DNA from: Candidatus Butyricicoccus avistercoris
Lineage (GTDB): Bacteria > Bacillota > Clostridia > Oscillospirales > Butyricicoccaceae
Direction: 5' to 3'
Assembly (NCBI GenBank): GCA_019113005.1
Contig: DXIE01000057.1
Span: 1-64,000 of the forward strand
DNA length: 64,000 nt
Shown piece after piece: positions 50,731 to 64,000 of this stretch. The stretch's first letter is position 1. The number at the start of each line of letters is the position of its first letter. The position numbers were made by a program, and so were the translations under genes. The notes beneath the pieces were generated by a model. That model was not told where the DNA came from. It did no database searches and saw only the letters and a list, made by a program, of their open reading frames with translations.

Positions 50731-50821
50731 GGAGAGTTGGCTGAGTGGTCGAAGGCGCACGATTGGAAATCGTGTGTGCGGTAATCCCGTACCCAGGGTT
50801 CAAATCCCTGACTCTCCGCCA
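50731..50821 (+). tRNA. tRNA-Ser (anticodon GGA)
   Basis: Acceptor GGAGAGT pairs with ACTCTCC; the anticodon stem CACGA/TCGTG encloses TTGGAAA (anticodon GGA). A long variable arm (GTGCGGTAATCCCGTAC) is typical of tRNA-Ser. The T arm CAGGGTTCAAATCCCTG is perfect and CCA is encoded. An accessory region with an integrase starts immediately downstream, so it is the probable integration target. Confidence 0.97.
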
Positions 50822-50826
50822 TAAAG

Positions 50827-51960: not shown

Positions 51961-53136
51961 TTAACTTTCTGGCAAAGACTGAATAAGTGCTTCCATTCGG
52001 TTAGCACTGTTTTGCTGCATCATATCGCTGACATGTGCATATGTCTTTAAGGTAAATGAAGCGGCATAATGTCCGAGGTTGGTTTGAACGGTTTTTATGT
52101 CATCGCCGTTTTCAAGAGATATTGTTGCAAATGAATGACGTAATGAGTGGAATGTTCTATCACCCATACCACAGGAGCGTAAAACCCTTTTTAGATGCTT
52201 ATATATAGTGCGTCTGTTTAAAGGTTTGCCGAAATCATTTGTAAATACGAGTCCCCATTCATTATCCCAAACAGGTTCGGCAATTTGCTCCATACGGTGC
52301 TGTAAATTCTGTTGCTGCTTTAATGCATTTATAGCACTTTCAGCAAGAATGACACGGCGTTCTTTACCCTCTTTAGGTGGTGCAAGATAATAACTAAAAT
52401 CGCCTTTTACTTGTCTTTGCTGTAACTGACAACGTATGTAAATACAGTTATTTTGCCAGTCAATATCTTCCCAACGAAGCCCAAGTATTTCAGCCTGACG
52501 AAGTCCAGAAAATATATCAACAAAGAAGATATTGCGAAAAGGTTCTTTTTCTATCGCTTTTAAAAATGTGGATAGCTCACTGGTGGTTATAGGCTTTATT
52601 TGCTTTTGAATAACTCTAGGCAGAGTACAGTGGTTGGATATATTCTTTATCAGAATTTCGTCACGTACAGCTGCATCTAAAAGCCCATGCAGCACACCAT
52701 GTATATTGCGAATAGTTTTAGGTGAAAGCTCTTTTCCGCCTTGCCCAAGTGAGGATATAAAAGCCTGTACATCTCTATGTGAGAGTTTTGAAAGCTTAAT
52801 ACTACCCAGAGCGGGAAGTATATGCTTATCAAGAGCAATTTTATATGATTGCTGAGTATAAGGTGATAGAGTAGATACATAGTGAGCCACATATTCTTTA
52901 GAATAGTCGGTTAACGTAAGTTTTGACGGCTCTTGAAAAGTTCCACGGTCGATAGAAGCTGTTATTGCACGAAGTCTTTCTGCAACTTCTTTTTGAGTTT
53001 TGCCATATATAGTGTGTCTGCGTAACTTGCCTGTTTTTGGGTCTCTGCCGTTACAGTATTGACCTTGCCAGCGACCATCTGAGCGTTTAACAATGCTGCC
53101 GCTTCCTAATTCTCTGCGTGATGATTTTCTTGCCAT
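51961..53136 (-). CDS. Tyrosine recombinase / site-specific integrase
   Basis: 391 residues. The N-terminal arm-binding domain (GSGSIVKRSDGRWQGQYCNG) is followed by a core-binding SAM-like domain (about 60-155) and the catalytic domain with the first Arg in FSGLRQAEILGLRW, HSLRHSFAT (HxxR), LGHYAAS and the nucleophile Tyr in KTYAHV. These are integrase-family landmarks of Tn916-like and phage integrases. The track start at 53187 gives an odd extension; AGGAGG precedes the ATG at 53136 (MARKSSRRELG), chosen here. It lies 1.1 kb from the tRNA-Ser and points toward it. Confidence 0.95.
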   Translation of the reverse strand: MARKSSRRELGSGSIVKRSDGRWQGQYCNGRDPKTGKLRRHTIYGKTQKEVAERLRAITASIDRGTFQEPSKLTLTDYSKEYVAHYVSTLSPYTQQSYKIALDKHILPALGSIKLSKLSHRDVQAFISSLGQGGKELSPKTIRNIHGVLHGLLDAAVRDEILIKNISNHCTLPRVIQKQIKPITTSELSTFLKAIEKEPFRNIFFVDIFSGLRQAEILGLRWEDIDWQNNCIYIRCQLQQRQVKGDFSYYLAPPKEGKERRVILAESAINALKQQQNLQHRMEQIAEPVWDNEWGLVFTNDFGKPLNRRTIYKHLKRVLRSCGMGDRTFHSLRHSFATISLENGDDIKTVQTNLGHYAASFTLKTYAHVSDMMQQNSANRMEALIQSLPES

Positions 53137-53467
53137 AATATTTTCCTCCTGATAATGAAAATTTGTGATATAAAAAGCGGCTTGCAATTAAGCAAGCCGC
53201 TAGAGGGTTATGATTCAATGCACTGCCCTGAGTGGTCATTCTTGTATGCCCCATAATGGTTTTTACACTATCAGGCACACAGATGTTAAGTTTATGAGCT
53301 GGAACAGGGCGTTTATAAATTTTGAGATTTCCGCCTAAGTTATAAGCTATTCCAGTTGCATCTGTACCACGACATTCGCATACGTTTGCAAGTGTGTTTA
53401 AAATTTTGTTTTTCTTTTTTGCGGTCAATGCATTATCAAAATCGATAAGACCAAATAAACTGCACAT
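53087..53467 (-). pseudogene. Truncated class II glutamine amidotransferase
   Basis: Begins MCSLFGLIDFDN with Cys2 as the Ntn-hydrolase nucleophile, continues with CECRGTDATGIAY and IMGHTRMTTQGS, all typical of class II glutaminase domains. Homology stops after about 90 residues. From there the frame runs through a terminator hairpin (53172-53201) and the integrase ribosome site to a chance stop at 53087. Full domains are more than twice as long. The gene therefore appears cut off 3', probably by the integrase-side junction. Confidence 0.8.
53172..53201 (-). terminator. Terminator inside the truncated amidotransferase frame
   Basis: Minus strand AGCGGCTTGC / GCAAGCCGCT stem, 6-nt loop, then TTTTTATA. 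It ends the amidoligase/amidotransferase transcript before int. Confidence 0.88.
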
Positions 53468-53480
53468 AAAATACCTCCTG

Positions 53481-54569
53481 TTATTGTTCCACCGGTTCAT
53501 TTACATATAAACGACGTTCTTTAAGATACTGAATAAGTTCTGGCTCGGAAATCAGTTCAAGGAAATCGAACCAGCTCATATCTTGTAAATCGGTATCATG
53601 TAAAGAAAGAGCTACCTCACAGAGATGATTCACAAACTGCAAAGTAGCTTTTAAAGTATTTAGTTTTAGTGTACCTCTGAATAATCTGAGCTCTACGGTT
53701 TCGCTGTTTGTAAGATTTACTGCTGTGTATCTGCCAGCACATGAGTTTTTAGCATGGTCAATTTGCTCCTTAGGACAGAGCTTCATGCCGTAGCGAGCTG
53801 CCCAACGATTAAGCTGACTTTTTGTTCTGCGGCTAAATCTTAAAAGTTCAGGCCAGAACTTTTCTACAAAGAATACAAGTCTGGCAATACATTCCTCTTG
53901 TGCTGCATATGTTGAGCCAAAAGCTGTTCGGTTAATATGTACATGTAAACCGCATGTTTCTGAGCTATGACTGAGATAACAAAGACTTTTAGCTTCATAT
54001 AAAATATCAGCCCAAGGCATATCATTTATATGATATTCAAGTGTCATAGGGTGGGTGACAAGCTCTAAGCCTTCGTTTAAACTGCCATCGGTTTTGATAT
54101 ACAGGTTTTCAGCTCTATCGTTTGCAACTTCAAGCAATGCCTGAGCGTTATCGTTATCGGTTCCGCCGTCATCAATTTCAAGTTCAACTCCAAAATAGCG
54201 GTTACATTTTCCGTGAAAGATTAAAGTATCAGGTACATAATTGTACTCATGAATGGTGTTTCTATGGCTTTGCCAGCAGTCATAGCATAAAGGACGGTCA
54301 GGGTCATCGTTTGCATAGTAAGTGTTGTCTGTATGTATTATTGTTTCGCAATTTTCACAGGTATAATAGTGATTTGAGAAACAATCACGGCATAAAGTTA
54401 CAGTTCCATCGGTTATTGTGTCCTCAATGTATACATACTCATGACAGTGCTCACAGGTAGTTGTTAAATTATCGGCACAATCAGGGCATAATAGGTCATC
54501 ACCTACATAAATAACGTCATCAAGGCTAAATTCAACGCCACAGTTGTTACAAATAAAAGTTTCTCGCAT
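53481..54569 (-). CDS. Amidoligase-family protein with N-terminal zinc ribbons
   Basis: About 362 residues. The N-terminal third has five to six CxxC pairs (CNNC, CPDC, CEHC, CRDC, CENC, CYDC) forming zinc-ribbon-like repeats. The remainder is a glutamine-synthetase-fold amidoligase domain: YFGVELEIDDGGTDNDN, ETCGLHVHINRTAFG and VELRLFRGTLKLNTLKATLQFV. Members are predicted ATP-dependent COOH-NH2 ligases that work with glutaminases and occur in mobile elements. The start at 54569 (MRETFICNNCG) has AAGGAGGAG upstream. Downstream lies the truncated amidotransferase, a typical partner. Confidence 0.85.
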   Translation of the reverse strand: MRETFICNNCGVEFSLDDVIYVGDDLLCPDCADNLTTTCEHCHEYVYIEDTITDGTVTLCRDCFSNHYYTCENCETIIHTDNTYYANDDPDRPLCYDCWQSHRNTIHEYNYVPDTLIFHGKCNRYFGVELEIDDGGTDNDNAQALLEVANDRAENLYIKTDGSLNEGLELVTHPMTLEYHINDMPWADILYEAKSLCYLSHSSETCGLHVHINRTAFGSTYAAQEECIARLVFFVEKFWPELLRFSRRTKSQLNRWAARYGMKLCPKEQIDHAKNSCAGRYTAVNLTNSETVELRLFRGTLKLNTLKATLQFVNHLCEVALSLHDTDLQDMSWFDFLELISEPELIQYLKERRLYVNEPVEQ

Positions 54570-54582
54570 TTTTAGCTCCTCC

Positions 54583-54873
54583 TTAATATTCTTCGGATAG
54601 CAGCATTGTGCTATGGGTTTGGTCATCAATTACAAATATTTTAGCGGTTACAGCATTTTTGCATTCCAAGCAAAGTTCATATTTATATGGTGGTTGTTCT
54701 TGCTTATGGCAAATATACTGTTTTCCGTCTGGTTGCTTTTCAAGCTCAAAGACCTGCAAATAATCTTTGTTTTCTACTTCCATCTGATGAATCATAAACC
54801 ACATAAGGTTTATAAGCCATGGTGGTATATTTCTAGATATACCTTTTGTGATGTAATGTGGATTGTTGAACAT
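54583..54873 (-). CDS. DUF960 family protein
   Basis: 96 residues starting MFNNPHYITKGISRNIPPWL with DYLQVFEL and ICHKQEQPPYKY, a pattern matching DUF960, a family of unknown function common in staphylococcal and clostridial mobile elements. The track start (54921) lacks an RBS; AAGGAGTGA precedes the ATG at 54873. It is 13 bp upstream of the amidoligase gene and likely co-transcribed. Confidence 0.75.
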   Translation of the reverse strand: MFNNPHYITKGISRNIPPWLINLMWFMIHQMEVENKDYLQVFELEKQPDGKQYICHKQEQPPYKYELCLECKNAVTAKIFVIDDQTHSTMLLSEEY

Positions 54874-58420: not shown

Positions 58421-59011
58421 ATGAAAAATAGTACAATAGATTATTATAATACTAATGCTGAAAAGTTTGTTAATGATACAATAAATGTTGAATTTACAGA
58501 TATACAGAATAAATTTATAGGCAAACTACATAGCGGGGCAATGATTTTAGATTTTGGTTGTGGCTCAGGTAGAGATACAAAGTACTTTATTTCAAGAGGG
58601 TATCAAGTAGATGCAATAGACGGTTCTAAAGAGCTTTGCAAGATTGCGACGGAATACACAGGCATTGAAGTGAAAAATATATATTTTGAGGATTTTAAAG
58701 AGCAAAATAAATACGATGCCATATGGGCATGTTCATCTATACTTCATCTTGCAAGAAACGATTTAAAAAATGTGATAAAAAATATGGTAATAACATTGAA
58801 AGACAATGGAGTTATATATACTTCTTTTAAGTATGGTACTTTTGAAGGTGAGAGAAACGGAAGATACTTCACTGATATGACTGAAAAGAGTTTTAATGAA
58901 TTGATACATGATATAAATGGTGTAATTATCGAAGAATACTGGGTGACAGGTGATGCTAGACCGGAAAGAGGAAATGAAAAATGGCTCAACCTAATATTGA
59001 GAAAGAAATAG
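58421..59011 (+). CDS. Class I SAM-dependent methyltransferase
   Basis: 196 residues. SAM-binding motif I is ILDFGCGSGRDTKYF, with DAIDGS as the acidic motif II end and IWACSSILHL later. It ends in a short beta-strand tail. It lacks DPPY or NPPY, so it is not an obvious DNA amino-methyltransferase; the substrate could be small-molecule, RNA or protein. The track start at 58376 is extended; TTGGAGA precedes the ATG at 58421. An extended -10 (TGTTATAAT, 58382-58390) sits just ahead. Its 3' end overlaps the helicase gene by 31 bp, so the two are coupled. Confidence 0.8.
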   Translation: MKNSTIDYYNTNAEKFVNDTINVEFTDIQNKFIGKLHSGAMILDFGCGSGRDTKYFISRGYQVDAIDGSKELCKIATEYTGIEVKNIYFEDFKEQNKYDAIWACSSILHLARNDLKNVIKNMVITLKDNGVIYTSFKYGTFEGERNGRYFTDMTEKSFNELIHDINGVIIEEYWVTGDARPERGNEKWLNLILRKK

Positions 59012-61434
59012 AAATACAGCATACAGATGTAATAACGGGTGATAAAGATAAAAATAAATATTTATATTATCAGCTTAAAGAAAGTATATCAAAAGCGAAT
59101 AAAATAGATATTATAGTGTCTTTTTTAATGGAGTCAGGCGTTAGAATGATTTTAAACGATTTAAAATTGGCACTTGATAGAGGTGTTGAAATAAGAATTT
59201 TAACAGGAAATTATTTAGGTATAACACAGCCCTCTGCCTTGTATTTGATAAAGAAAGAGCTTGATAATAAAATAGATTTACGTTTTTATAACGACAAAAA
59301 CCGTTCATTTCACCCAAAATCATATATATTTCATTATGATAATATGAGTGAAATATATATAGGTTCTTCTAATATATCAAGAAGTGCATTAACATCGGGG
59401 ATAGAATGGAATTACCGTTTTACAAGTCTTACAAACAAAGAGAATTTTAATGAATTTTTTATTAAATTTGAGGACTTATTTTATAATCATTCGATTATTA
59501 TAGACGATGAAGAACTTAAACGATACTCTAAAAATTGGCATAAACCCGCTTTGTCAAAGGATTTAGCAAAATATGATGAACAAGATAATGTTATAGATAT
59601 ATTTGAACCTAGAGGAGTCCAAATAGAGGCGTTATATGCCCTTGAAGATAGTCGTGCAGAAGGTGCAACTAAGGGGTTGGTTCAAGCTGCTACGGGTGTA
59701 GGTAAAACATATTTAGCAGCATTTGATTCTGACAAATATGAAAAAGTGTTATTTGTTGCTCATAGAGAAGAAATACTGCATCAAGCAGCAATATCATTTA
59801 AAAATGTTAGAAAATCTGATGATTATGGTTTTTTCTATGGCAAGCAAAAAGATATAGATAAATCTGTAATTTTCGCATCAGTTGCTACACTTGGTAAAAG
59901 TCAGTATTTAAACAGTCAATATTTTTCTAAAGATTATTTTGATTATATTGTAATAGATGAGTTTCACCATGCGGTAAATGACCAATATTTGCAGATTGTT
60001 AGTTATTTTGAACCTAAATTCTTGCTAGGACTAACAGCTACTCCAGAAAGAATGGACGGTAAAAATATATATGAAATCTGTGATTATAATGTACCTTATG
60101 AAATATCACTAAAAGAAGCCATAAACAAAGGTGTATTAGTACCATTTCATTATTATGGTGTCTATGACGAAACAGATTATTCGGGTTTACATATTATAAA
60201 AGGTCGTTATGATAATAATGAACTTACACAGATTTATAAAAATAATGCTAAACGTTACGATTTGATATATAAGTACTATTTTAAATACCGTTCTAAACAA
60301 GTATTAGGTTTTTGCTGTTCAAGAGAACATGCTGAACAAATGGCAGCCGAATTTTGTAAGCGTGGTATACCATCTGTGGCGGTTTATAGTGATGCACATG
60401 GACAATTCTCAATGAATAGAGATAAAGCAATAGAACTTTTAATAAATAACAAAATTAGGGTTATATTTTCGGTTGATATGTTTAATGAGTGTTTTGATAT
60501 TGCATCGTTGGATATGGTTATGTTTCTCAGACCTACAGAATCGCCAGTGGTCTTTTTACAGCAACTTGGCAGAGGACTCAGAACTTATAAGGGAAAGCAA
60601 TATTTAAATGTGATTGATTTTATAGGTAACTATGAAAAAGCGGGTAGAGTATCACTATTATTAAGCGGTAAAAATCAGAATAGCAATAAAAAAGCATATG
60701 ACTATACGGAAATCGAATATCCAGATGACTGTATCGTTGATTTTGATATGCGATTAGTTGATTTGTTCAGAGAGATGGACAAAAAATCAATGCCTATGAA
60801 ACTTCGTATAAATAATGAGTTTTATAAAGTAAAAGAGCTTTTAAATAATAAAGTACCGTCAAGAATTGAGCTATTCACATATATGGACGATGAAGTGTAT
60901 GAATACTGTATTCGCCATGCAAAAGAAAATCCATTTCGTAGATACCTTGAATTTTTAAATGATTTAGGTGAACTATCACAGGATGAAAAAGAGTTATATT
61001 CTGGTATAGGAAAAGAATTTATTTCAATTATACAGACAACAGATATGCAAAAAGTTTATAAAATGCCTATATTATATGCTTTTTACAACAATGGCGATGT
61101 TAAAATTGCAGTAACTGAGCAAGACATGCTAATAAGCTGGAAAAAATTTTTTGATACAAATAAGAACTGGAAGGATTTTGCACCCAATATTATATATGCA
61201 GAGTATAAAAACATGACTGATAGACAGCATTTAAGCAAAGCAAAAACGATGCCTATAAAATTCTTAAAGGCATCAGGTAAAGGCTTTTTTGTTGATAAAG
61301 ATGGATATGCATTGGCACTAAGAGAAGATTTAAAAGAAATAATAACAAATAATGCATTTAAAAATCATTTTAAGGATATTCTTGAGTATAGAACTATGGA
61401 ATACTATAGAAGAAGATATTCATTATTGAATTAG
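58981..61434 (+). CDS. PLD-nuclease and superfamily-2 helicase fusion protein
   Basis: 817 residues. The N-terminal PLD-like domain (about 20-180) has HPKSYIFHYD and GSSNISRSALTSG, the HxK and G-S-S-N elements of the phospholipase D nuclease fold. The helicase domain has Walker A AATGVGKTYLA, DEFH box IVIDEFHHA and motif VI QQLGRGLR. A long C-terminal helical region (about 600-817) is unassigned. Such PLD-helicases resemble restriction/defence ATPases (ResIII class). It overlaps the methyltransferase, so both form one unit. Whether the nuclease half is active is inferred from a single visible HxK; I did not see a second complete HxKx4D copy. Confidence 0.85.
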   Translation: MAQPNIEKEIEIQHTDVITGDKDKNKYLYYQLKESISKANKIDIIVSFLMESGVRMILNDLKLALDRGVEIRILTGNYLGITQPSALYLIKKELDNKIDLRFYNDKNRSFHPKSYIFHYDNMSEIYIGSSNISRSALTSGIEWNYRFTSLTNKENFNEFFIKFEDLFYNHSIIIDDEELKRYSKNWHKPALSKDLAKYDEQDNVIDIFEPRGVQIEALYALEDSRAEGATKGLVQAATGVGKTYLAAFDSDKYEKVLFVAHREEILHQAAISFKNVRKSDDYGFFYGKQKDIDKSVIFASVATLGKSQYLNSQYFSKDYFDYIVIDEFHHAVNDQYLQIVSYFEPKFLLGLTATPERMDGKNIYEICDYNVPYEISLKEAINKGVLVPFHYYGVYDETDYSGLHIIKGRYDNNELTQIYKNNAKRYDLIYKYYFKYRSKQVLGFCCSREHAEQMAAEFCKRGIPSVAVYSDAHGQFSMNRDKAIELLINNKIRVIFSVDMFNECFDIASLDMVMFLRPTESPVVFLQQLGRGLRTYKGKQYLNVIDFIGNYEKAGRVSLLLSGKNQNSNKKAYDYTEIEYPDDCIVDFDMRLVDLFREMDKKSMPMKLRINNEFYKVKELLNNKVPSRIELFTYMDDEVYEYCIRHAKENPFRRYLEFLNDLGELSQDEKELYSGIGKEFISIIQTTDMQKVYKMPILYAFYNNGDVKIAVTEQDMLISWKKFFDTNKNWKDFAPNIIYAEYKNMTDRQHLSKAKTMPIKFLKASGKGFFVDKDGYALALREDLKEIITNNAFKNHFKDILEYRTMEYYRRRYSLLN

Positions 61435-61755: not shown

Positions 61756-64000
61756 ATGGTGAAAAGCATACAGCAGTATGTAATTGTAGCTGGTGCTGGT
61801 ATCTCTGCTAAACCTCCTTCCAATCTTCCAAGTTGGTGGGAGTACAACAAGAAACTAATCGCTCAAATAAAAAAAGAGGCTTTGACGCTGTGCCCTGAAG
61901 CAGAAAAAATACTAGAATGTATAAATGTTGAAAACAAACTTCCTGTCCAATGCATATCTCAGGTTATTGTAAGTCAAGGTGCTGGAGAGAGCTATTTTCC
62001 ATTACTTGAGCTATTGAACAGCAAGACTCCAAATGATAACCATTTTGCATTGGCAGAACTGGCATGGCAAGGTAAATTAAAAGCTATTGTAACAACAAAT
62101 TTTGACTCACTTATTGAAACAGCATTTCGAAAGAAATCCATTCCACTTTATGTAACTGTACATAAGGAAGATTATTACGAAGCTTCACAGATAAAAACAT
62201 GTAGATTATTCAAAATCCACGGCTCAGTTTATGATAGTACTTCTATGATTGACACTATTAGCCAAAAAATGTTGGGATTGTCAAATGAGAAGCGGTTTGT
62301 TTTAGAAAATGTACTTGGTAACAGTGAAATCTTTGTAATCGGTTTCTCTGGCACAGATTTGGATTTTGATTTAGATTATATTCCATTTTCAAAAGCTTTA
62401 AATCAGGGAAGTAAACTAACATGGGTCATTCGTCCAAATAGCGAAGTTAATCCAAATATAATGCAACTTCAAAAACAATATCCTGATAATGTTCATGTAT
62501 GTGAAATGGAACTATCTGATTTCTTTTCATCTCTTAACATAAATATCCAAGAAAGTCAAGAAGTCTTAACATTAGATACAGATACAAAACTAGATAAAAG
62601 GATTGAAGAGTTGTTTTCATCTCCACATATTGGAGCACATGGATGTGTAGGTTATTGTCTTACTCTGCTGAGAATGATTGGAGACACTGAAGGTGCAAAA
62701 AAACTAGCTTCAATATACGAACAAAAAATAAACTGGTCTTCGTTAGATGTTCTTTCTGTAATGGGTATTAACGCACTTGCTATGCAAAAGATGTTTAGCA
62801 AAGATTGGAAAGGTGCTGTTCGAGTCTATAATGCTGTAATTCAATGCCACTTAGCGTTGGATCAAATATCTAAGTCTTTGCGTGCGTACACTACCCCAGA
62901 GCAATGCCAAGCACAGCAACTGGAAACCTGCAGAAATCTAACCTCTACATATATAAATCTTGCCACAGCATATTACTATATGGCTGTAGTAGACCATGCG
63001 GATACACTGAGTGATGCAAAAAAATATTTAGAACAAGCAAAAGAACAAGTTCAAGAGAAACCTGAGATTGCACAACATAGCCTCATCTTCTTTGGATTGG
63101 CAAGAGTTGAATATCAGCAAACTAAAGATATCGACCAATACATTGATAAGCTGCATGTTTGTCAACAGTTTGCTCAAAAAGAGCGAAAACTAGATACCCT
63201 AGTGGAAATTATGCTGGAAGAATGTAAAATTCACATGCAAATCGGAGAATATCCACTGGCTCATATGCTTTTAACTGACGTAAAAATTAGGCTAAAAAAT
63301 GTAGGCTCTAGTATGCTGGAGTCAATATGGGAAAAATTACACTCAGAATACCAACTCAGAACTGGAGTACACGCAAAATTGGTAACAGATGATGTACTTA
63401 GCACCCTAACGAGGTATGCAGATGAGATTGAACGAAAAATAATCATAATATATGAGGCAAAAAAGATAAAATCAGAACAAATATCATCTTTATTTTACCA
63501 ACTAGGTCTCAAATATCTATCCAAAGGAGCTTGGAAGCGTACTTGGGACTTAGCACAATGTTGCAATACTACTGCCTATACTGATATGCAAAAAGTAGAT
63601 GCATTATATATTCTTGGCTGCTCCGAGTTGGAACTAGCAAGATATTCGGAAGCCATCATCTCTTTTGAACATATCCTCAATATGGGAACCGGCATCAATG
63701 ACCTAAAATTAGGGTGGGCTCACTCAGAGCTCTGCCGTATATTTATTCGTAATAATGATATCTCTAAGGCTATCAGGCATTTCGAAGATAGTTTTGATAT
63801 CTTGCTGAATCTGGGAGATATGGAGCAACTAACAGAATCTGCTGCCAGTTGTATCATGGAGCTGTTTAGTAATAATTATATCAAACAGGCCGAAAAAGCA
63901 GCTACTCATTTATTAAGTGTTATTGATAATACAAATGCAGCAAACTTTAGAAAATATCTGGAACATTTACGCCTAACATATAATCAAAATGAAATTGAAA
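61756..64000 (+). CDS. SIR2-domain protein with helical-repeat C terminus, 3' end outside window
   Basis: Open without a stop from 61756 to the window edge, at least 748 codons, and absent from the supplied ORF track. The N-terminal SIR2-like NAD-binding domain (about 1-260) has VAGAGIS (residues 11-17, Gly13), TTNFDSL (Asn115, Asp117), KIHGS (catalytic His155) and IGFSGTDLDF (about 195-204). The C-terminal part (from about 270) is all helical, with repeats such as LATAYYYMAVVDHADTLSDA resembling TPR/alpha-solenoid. SIR2 proteins of this build are anti-phage NADases (for example ThsA, DSR). The start is set by the first ATG after an in-frame TAA at 61720; AAAGG lies 1 nt (ATG) or 4 nt (GTG at 61759) upstream, so the exact start is uncertain. 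Confidence 0.85.
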   Translation, partial: MVKSIQQYVIVAGAGISAKPPSNLPSWWEYNKKLIAQIKKEALTLCPEAEKILECINVENKLPVQCISQVIVSQGAGESYFPLLELLNSKTPNDNHFALAELAWQGKLKAIVTTNFDSLIETAFRKKSIPLYVTVHKEDYYEASQIKTCRLFKIHGSVYDSTSMIDTISQKMLGLSNEKRFVLENVLGNSEIFVIGFSGTDLDFDLDYIPFSKALNQGSKLTWVIRPNSEVNPNIMQLQKQYPDNVHVCEMELSDFFSSLNINIQESQEVLTLDTDTKLDKRIEELFSSPHIGAHGCVGYCLTLLRMIGDTEGAKKLASIYEQKINWSSLDVLSVMGINALAMQKMFSKDWKGAVRVYNAVIQCHLALDQISKSLRAYTTPEQCQAQQLETCRNLTSTYINLATAYYYMAVVDHADTLSDAKKYLEQAKEQVQEKPEIAQHSLIFFGLARVEYQQTKDIDQYIDKLHVCQQFAQKERKLDTLVEIMLEECKIHMQIGEYPLAHMLLTDVKIRLKNVGSSMLESIWEKLHSEYQLRTGVHAKLVTDDVLSTLTRYADEIERKIIIIYEAKKIKSEQISSLFYQLGLKYLSKGAWKRTWDLAQCCNTTAYTDMQKVDALYILGCSELELARYSEAIISFEHILNMGTGINDLKLGWAHSELCRIFIRNNDISKAIRHFEDSFDILLNLGDMEQLTESAASCIMELFSNNYIKQAEKAATHLLSVIDNTNAANFRKYLEHLRLTYNQNEIE

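Follow-up and report, generated by a model that had tools for sequence, protein, structure and literature searches.

Integrative element carrying the SIR2-TPR gene

The window analysed here, from the chromosome of a gut-type member of the Clostridia, covers bases 1 to 64,000 of a contig of 86,497 bp, and the reading frame that runs off its end was traced further on the same contig. A gene for tRNA-Ser (GGA) at positions 50731-50821 of the forward strand is the insertion site of a mobile element. The end of this tRNA gene carries a 27-bp attachment repeat (50799-50825, listed without a strand), an identical copy is found at contig positions 76455-76481, and these exact repeats bound an integrative element of 25,656 bp (contig 50799-76481). 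In a sister genome of the same genus both flanks are joined via a single copy of the repeat, representing the empty site, and at this tRNA another member of the genus has an integrase end that is 97% identical. The GC content of the element is 31.6%, as against 37.3% to its left, and a tyrosine integrase is encoded on the reverse strand at 51961-53187 (Phage_integrase, 3.3e-28). The repeats and the empty site therefore identify the gene described below, SIR2-TPR, as cargo of an integrative element.

Further cargo includes a Zeta-toxin-like kinase and a putative amidoligase gene (window 53481-54629). Upstream of SIR2-TPR, the forward strand at 58981-61434 encodes a PLD-like nuclease joined to a DEAD/ResIII helicase (Pfam), with strong likeness to the type IV methyl-directed restriction models of PADLOC (mREase_IV, 3.6e-94); this neighbour was judged to lie outside the SIR2-TPR system.

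Extent of the SIR2-TPR reading frame

The SIR2-TPR gene occupies 61756-64000 of the forward strand in the window. The preliminary description had reported one open frame of at least 748 codons reaching the window edge, and 61756-63999 indeed represents 748 codons, open to the end. It had also called for the frame to be followed beyond position 64000, and on reading the contig past the window edge we located the stop at 64644, giving a protein of 962 amino acids, and read the genes downstream. The gene is absent from the default list of open reading frames because it runs off the end of the window. A scan for promoters and terminators gave signals no better than chance level.

The reading frame shifts after codon ~957, and about 200 amino acids of repeats remain in a different frame: directly past the SIR2-TPR stop, a 201-amino acid frame at contig 64650-65255 holds further TPR-like sequence. 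Since the frame is unbroken in relatives of the protein, this segment is, as read from the sequence, the C-terminal end of SIR2-TPR. Identity to the nearest relative, found in a metagenome-assembled genome (MAG), was 47% before the frame shift and 46% after it, so the tail is without sign of lost constraint, and the shift in the window copy would appear to be either recent or an assembly error. Synonymous rates in the frame-shifted tail were saturated in a synonymous-rate test. Because of the C-terminal frame shift, SIR2-TPR may be inactive or altered in this strain, unless the break arose during assembly.

The SIR2 domain and its catalytic residues

The SIR2 domain is encoded at 61756-62610 (forward strand; residues ~1-285), and Pfam SIR2_2 matched residues 110-205 (E 5.2e-13, 49.7 bits against a cut-off of 24.5). 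The motifs noticed earlier are present in the order described, with GAGIS at residue 13, TTNFD at 113, KIHGS at 153 and GFSGTD at 196. TTNFD supplies the catalytic N115 and D117, and KIHGS supplies H155; all three residues are intact. GAGIS, TTNFD, the HG containing H155, and GFS..D were invariant in all four aligned relatives.

A profile of the SIR2 domain was searched against solved structures. The best matches were SeThsA (7uxt, 1e-9), KomC (3e-8), SPARSA (1.5e-7), ThsA (2e-6) and DSR2 (2e-4), 7uxt being the SeThsA structure (PMC11087589). Also among the high matches was 9v0g, an SIR2 assembly whose record gives no more than 'NAD-dependent protein deacetylase', and classical sirtuins were interleaved with defence SIR2 proteins in the ranking. 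Mutation of N133 and H171 of DSR2, the same Asn/His pair, abolishes its activity (PMC11087589). Taken with the residues that are kept, these matches suggest that the SIR2 domain is of the NADase/defence type. Identity to the nearest relative was 61% in the SIR2 part and 46-47% in the arm that follows it; a conserved SIR2 domain with a more variable arm would be the pattern expected if the effector is fixed and the sensor varies.

The TPR arm and the predicted structure of the protein

From residue ~275 onward the protein forms a TPR or helical solenoid (62578-64000, forward strand, with the tail in another frame at contig 64650-65255). The helical repeats resembling TPRs that had been proposed to follow the SIR2 domain were borne out by three lines of evidence. 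Pfam TPR_12 matched above its cut-off (E 1.1e-8, 35.5 bits against 30.1), an AlphaFold model showed an all-helical arm with helices from residue 275 to 955, mostly at pLDDT 75-93, and a Foldseek search of this model returned TPR solenoids. Confidence in the SIR2 part of the model was low. The whole model, SIR2 domain and helices together, aligned with DSR2 chains in Foldseek (E ~2e-6, ~1,040 columns), with a low global TM-score of 0.16-0.20. No GK[ST] P-loop is present in the window protein or in its 1,219-amino acid relative, and there is therefore no STAND or other NTPase switch; the SIR2 domain is fused directly to the repeat arm.

Relatives of SIR2-TPR and their distribution

Homologues of the whole architecture were found at about 35-61% identity, and the SIR2-TPR frame is therefore not a chance one. 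The searches took in 394 genomes of the order, 391 of the class and 399 of the phylum, together with 58 from the order to which the 1,219-amino acid relative belongs and 200 from the family that includes the Hungatella copy. These sets are samples that overlap somewhat, and in the roughly 1,440 genome searches that they amount to, SIR2-TPR was present in four species, which makes its occurrence rare and patchy. In two relatives the protein is continuous, with a length of ~1,160-1,219 amino acids. One, in a species of another order of the same class (locus L010), is an unbroken SIR2-TPR protein of 1,219 residues; the other is the MAG relative, whose unbroken frame spans two overlapping contig ends (412 + 760 amino acids). 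The copy of Hungatella hathewayi has two in-frame stop codons, and with the frame shift in the window copy, broken copies make up two of the four.

Neither the 50,697 phage records nor the viral contigs searched gave an SIR2-TPR match, and plasmid matches covered the SIR2 domain only; a phage- or plasmid-borne family was consequently rejected. One such plasmid match, in Azospirillum, adjoins a NACHT gene and an integrase. An SIR2 relative in Rhizobium, which has S8 peptidase and FRG genes next to it, was set aside as a relative at the level of the domain.

In the three other species, SIR2-TPR is a single-gene insertion that stands alone amid ordinary genes, the flanks of the MAG relative being short. 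The expectation that homologues would recur beside defence genes thus did not hold for the full-length relatives, none of which is in an evident defence island. The association with defence rests instead on the mobile element that carries the window copy and on the distant SIR2 relatives, because the full-length relatives adjoin ordinary genes.

A recurring cassette downstream of SIR2-TPR

Contig positions 65681-72012, 1.7-8 kb beyond the end of the window, encode a NurA-like nuclease, a HerA ATPase, an HSP90/HtpG-type ATPase and, as the fourth gene, a radical SAM protein. The NurA-like protein gave a profile match to Deinococcus-type NurA (7f6d_H, 1.2e-6; mean pLDDT of its structure model, 46), and HerA matched the same 7f6d type at 6e-120; 7f6d is the Deinococcus HerA-NurA complex. 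The HSP90-type ATPase gene is frame-shifted as well, at contig 69380-69720, which brings the single frame breaks in the element to two within 5 kb; these reflect either decay of the cargo or an assembly problem.

With their arrangement kept, the four genes are found again in a gut virome scaffold, an IMG/VR contig and a genome of the same order (L019:454-6730, L023:8001-14334 and, for the genome, L029:4259-10335). All four frames are intact at the IMG/VR locus. The cassette HerA of the same-order genome has an in-frame stop (L029:7527-9263), its other three genes being open, and that cassette sits beside HNH, AbiH and another SIR2_2 gene. PADLOC had no match for three of the four cassette genes and matched HerA weakly, and a literature search on NurA, HerA and radical SAM brought up no account of such a system. 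The NurA-HerA-HSP90-type ATPase-radical SAM cassette is a candidate undescribed system.

The suggestion that neighbouring genes belong to the SIR2-TPR system was not upheld. No SIR2-TPR gene is present at the recurring cassette loci, SIR2-TPR stands by itself in its three relatives, and because the two gene sets recur independently, we rejected the downstream genes as partners and with them a partner operon. A larger operon of SIR2-TPR with the NurA, HerA, HSP90-type ATPase and radical SAM genes, in the manner of SIR2-HerA, is accordingly highly improbable. SIR2-TPR and the cassette do share a strand and an element, the HerA gene lies 2.2 kb downstream of the first SIR2-TPR stop, and a different SIR2_2 gene is found close to one relative of the cassette. 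However, a gap of 425 bp separates SIR2-TPR from the cassette, the examined flanks of the SIR2-TPR relatives lack the cassette, and its HerA is of the Deinococcus HerA-NurA type.

Comparison with known SIR2 defence systems

DSR2 was the best SIR2-bearing structural match to SIR2-TPR over the full length in Foldseek. Like SIR2-TPR, it is a single protein of ~1,000 amino acids with an N-terminal SIR2 domain, a long helical C-terminal sensor and no NTPase, and its NADase uses the same Asn/His pair. The profile match to DSR2, however, covered ~48 residues only, and the arm of SIR2-TPR is made of TPRs. A full-length phmmer search returned no DSR2 chain to E 0.1, and in the domain-profile search the likeness to DSR2 was limited to the SIR2 core. 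The SIR2 core of DSR2 is kept inactive, its helical middle and C-terminal regions bind a phage protein, and N133 and H171 are needed (PMC11087589).

Avs5 (SIR2-STAND-repeat) also combines an SIR2 effector with C-terminal TPR-type repeats; its repeat region is essential and SIR2 activity is required for immunity (PMC12931631). A central ATPase bearing a P-loop, absent from SIR2-TPR, is essential to Avs5. ThsA of Thoeris provided the closest solved SIR2 domain, but it binds its ligand through an SLOG domain and has ThsB, a TIR protein, as partner, where SIR2-TPR has TPRs; no SLOG domain was detected in SIR2-TPR, and no TIR gene among the scanned neighbours, by Pfam (a few small ORFs nearby being unassigned or outside the scan). 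The likeness to SIR2-HerA consists of an SIR2 gene with a HerA gene nearby. Here, in contrast, HerA pairs with NurA in a separate cassette, and linkage to HerA was absent in the examined flanks of the three relatives. Neither the APAZ domain nor the short pAgo partner of SPARSA was found in the protein or the scanned neighbour genes.

PADLOC matches covered the SIR2 domain alone, bar a generic TPR model. The Aga_SIR2 and pAgo matches were confined to it, and PDC-S65 and PDC-S25 matched it at 6.8e-14 and 7.4e-7, their best matches spanning 73 and 61 residues only and not the arm. On the features tested, SIR2-TPR, as judged from sequence and model, fits none of DSR2, ThsA, Avs5, SIR2-HerA and SPARSA, and a literature search on SIR2-TPR found no described system.

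Proposed function and alternative explanations

The preliminary description had interpreted the gene as an anti-phage SIR2 effector with neighbours that may belong to the system. The NADase-type SIR2 domain, the TPR solenoid and the mobile element agree with the first part of this interpretation, and the neighbours do not agree with the second. The parts observed here are an SIR2 domain with its Asn, Asp and His residues, a TPR arm, no NTPase, a single-gene layout in the relatives and an integrative element. From these we infer an autoinhibited NADase that senses a ligand and brings about abortive infection, and consider it likely that SIR2-TPR is a stand-alone defence NADase with a solenoid that senses the invader. 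By analogy with DSR2 and Avs5, the TPR arm would both sense and autoinhibit, and killing would fall to the SIR2 domain. The solenoid of ~900 residues would hold the SIR2 domain off until it bound a component of a phage or other invader; the N-terminal SIR2 domain, thus released, would hydrolyse NAD+, and the loss of NAD+ would halt the infected cell. SIR2-TPR probably acts as a single-gene suicide sensor against phages, one that is rare and undescribed. If so, it would represent a minimal SIR2 immune architecture in which an NADase is joined straight to a TPR arm, without a STAND ATPase like that of Avs5 or an SLOG sensor like that of ThsA. It would also allow one to test directly whether a repeat solenoid can by itself sense a phage protein and activate an SIR2 enzyme.

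A substantial chance, short of even, attaches to the reading that the gene in this strain is a decaying remnant, a former defence effector that is now a pseudogene with a truncated repeat arm, which can be compatible with the main reading of the SIR2-TPR family. The frame shift at codon ~957, the two in-frame stops of the Hungatella copy and the frame-shifted HSP90-type ATPase gene of the neighbouring cassette are in keeping with decay. Against it, the equal identity on either side of the shift makes any decay recent, the shift may be an assembly error, and the frame stays open across the whole SIR2 domain and the greater part of the arm. A quite improbable alternative makes SIR2-TPR a sirtuin-type protein deacylase or regulator, its TPR arm docking host substrates, rather than a suicide enzyme. 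TPRs often bind peptides, and CobB-type deacylase models gave weak matches (NF040867, 1.4e-6, far under its cut-off); yet the significant Pfam match is to SIR2_2 and not to classical SIR2, defence NADases make up most of the closest solved SIR2 domains, and the gene is sporadic among genomes and lies on a mobile element in the window genome.

In the cassette, a DNA-end-processing motor (HerA-NurA) is accompanied by a radical SAM enzyme and an HSP90-like ATPase. Neither PADLOC nor the literature searched contained this combination, and the greater novelty of the element may lie in the cassette. We tentatively entertain, at somewhat less than even chances, a joint reading of the element as a compact mobile defence island, with SIR2-TPR a distinct, undescribed, NTPase-free one-gene sensor family and the cassette a second undescribed system. 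At contig 73555-75743, a RecQ-like helicase adjoins a Rep protein with weak similarity to phage G2P/Rep_trans, and the two are perhaps the element's own replication genes.
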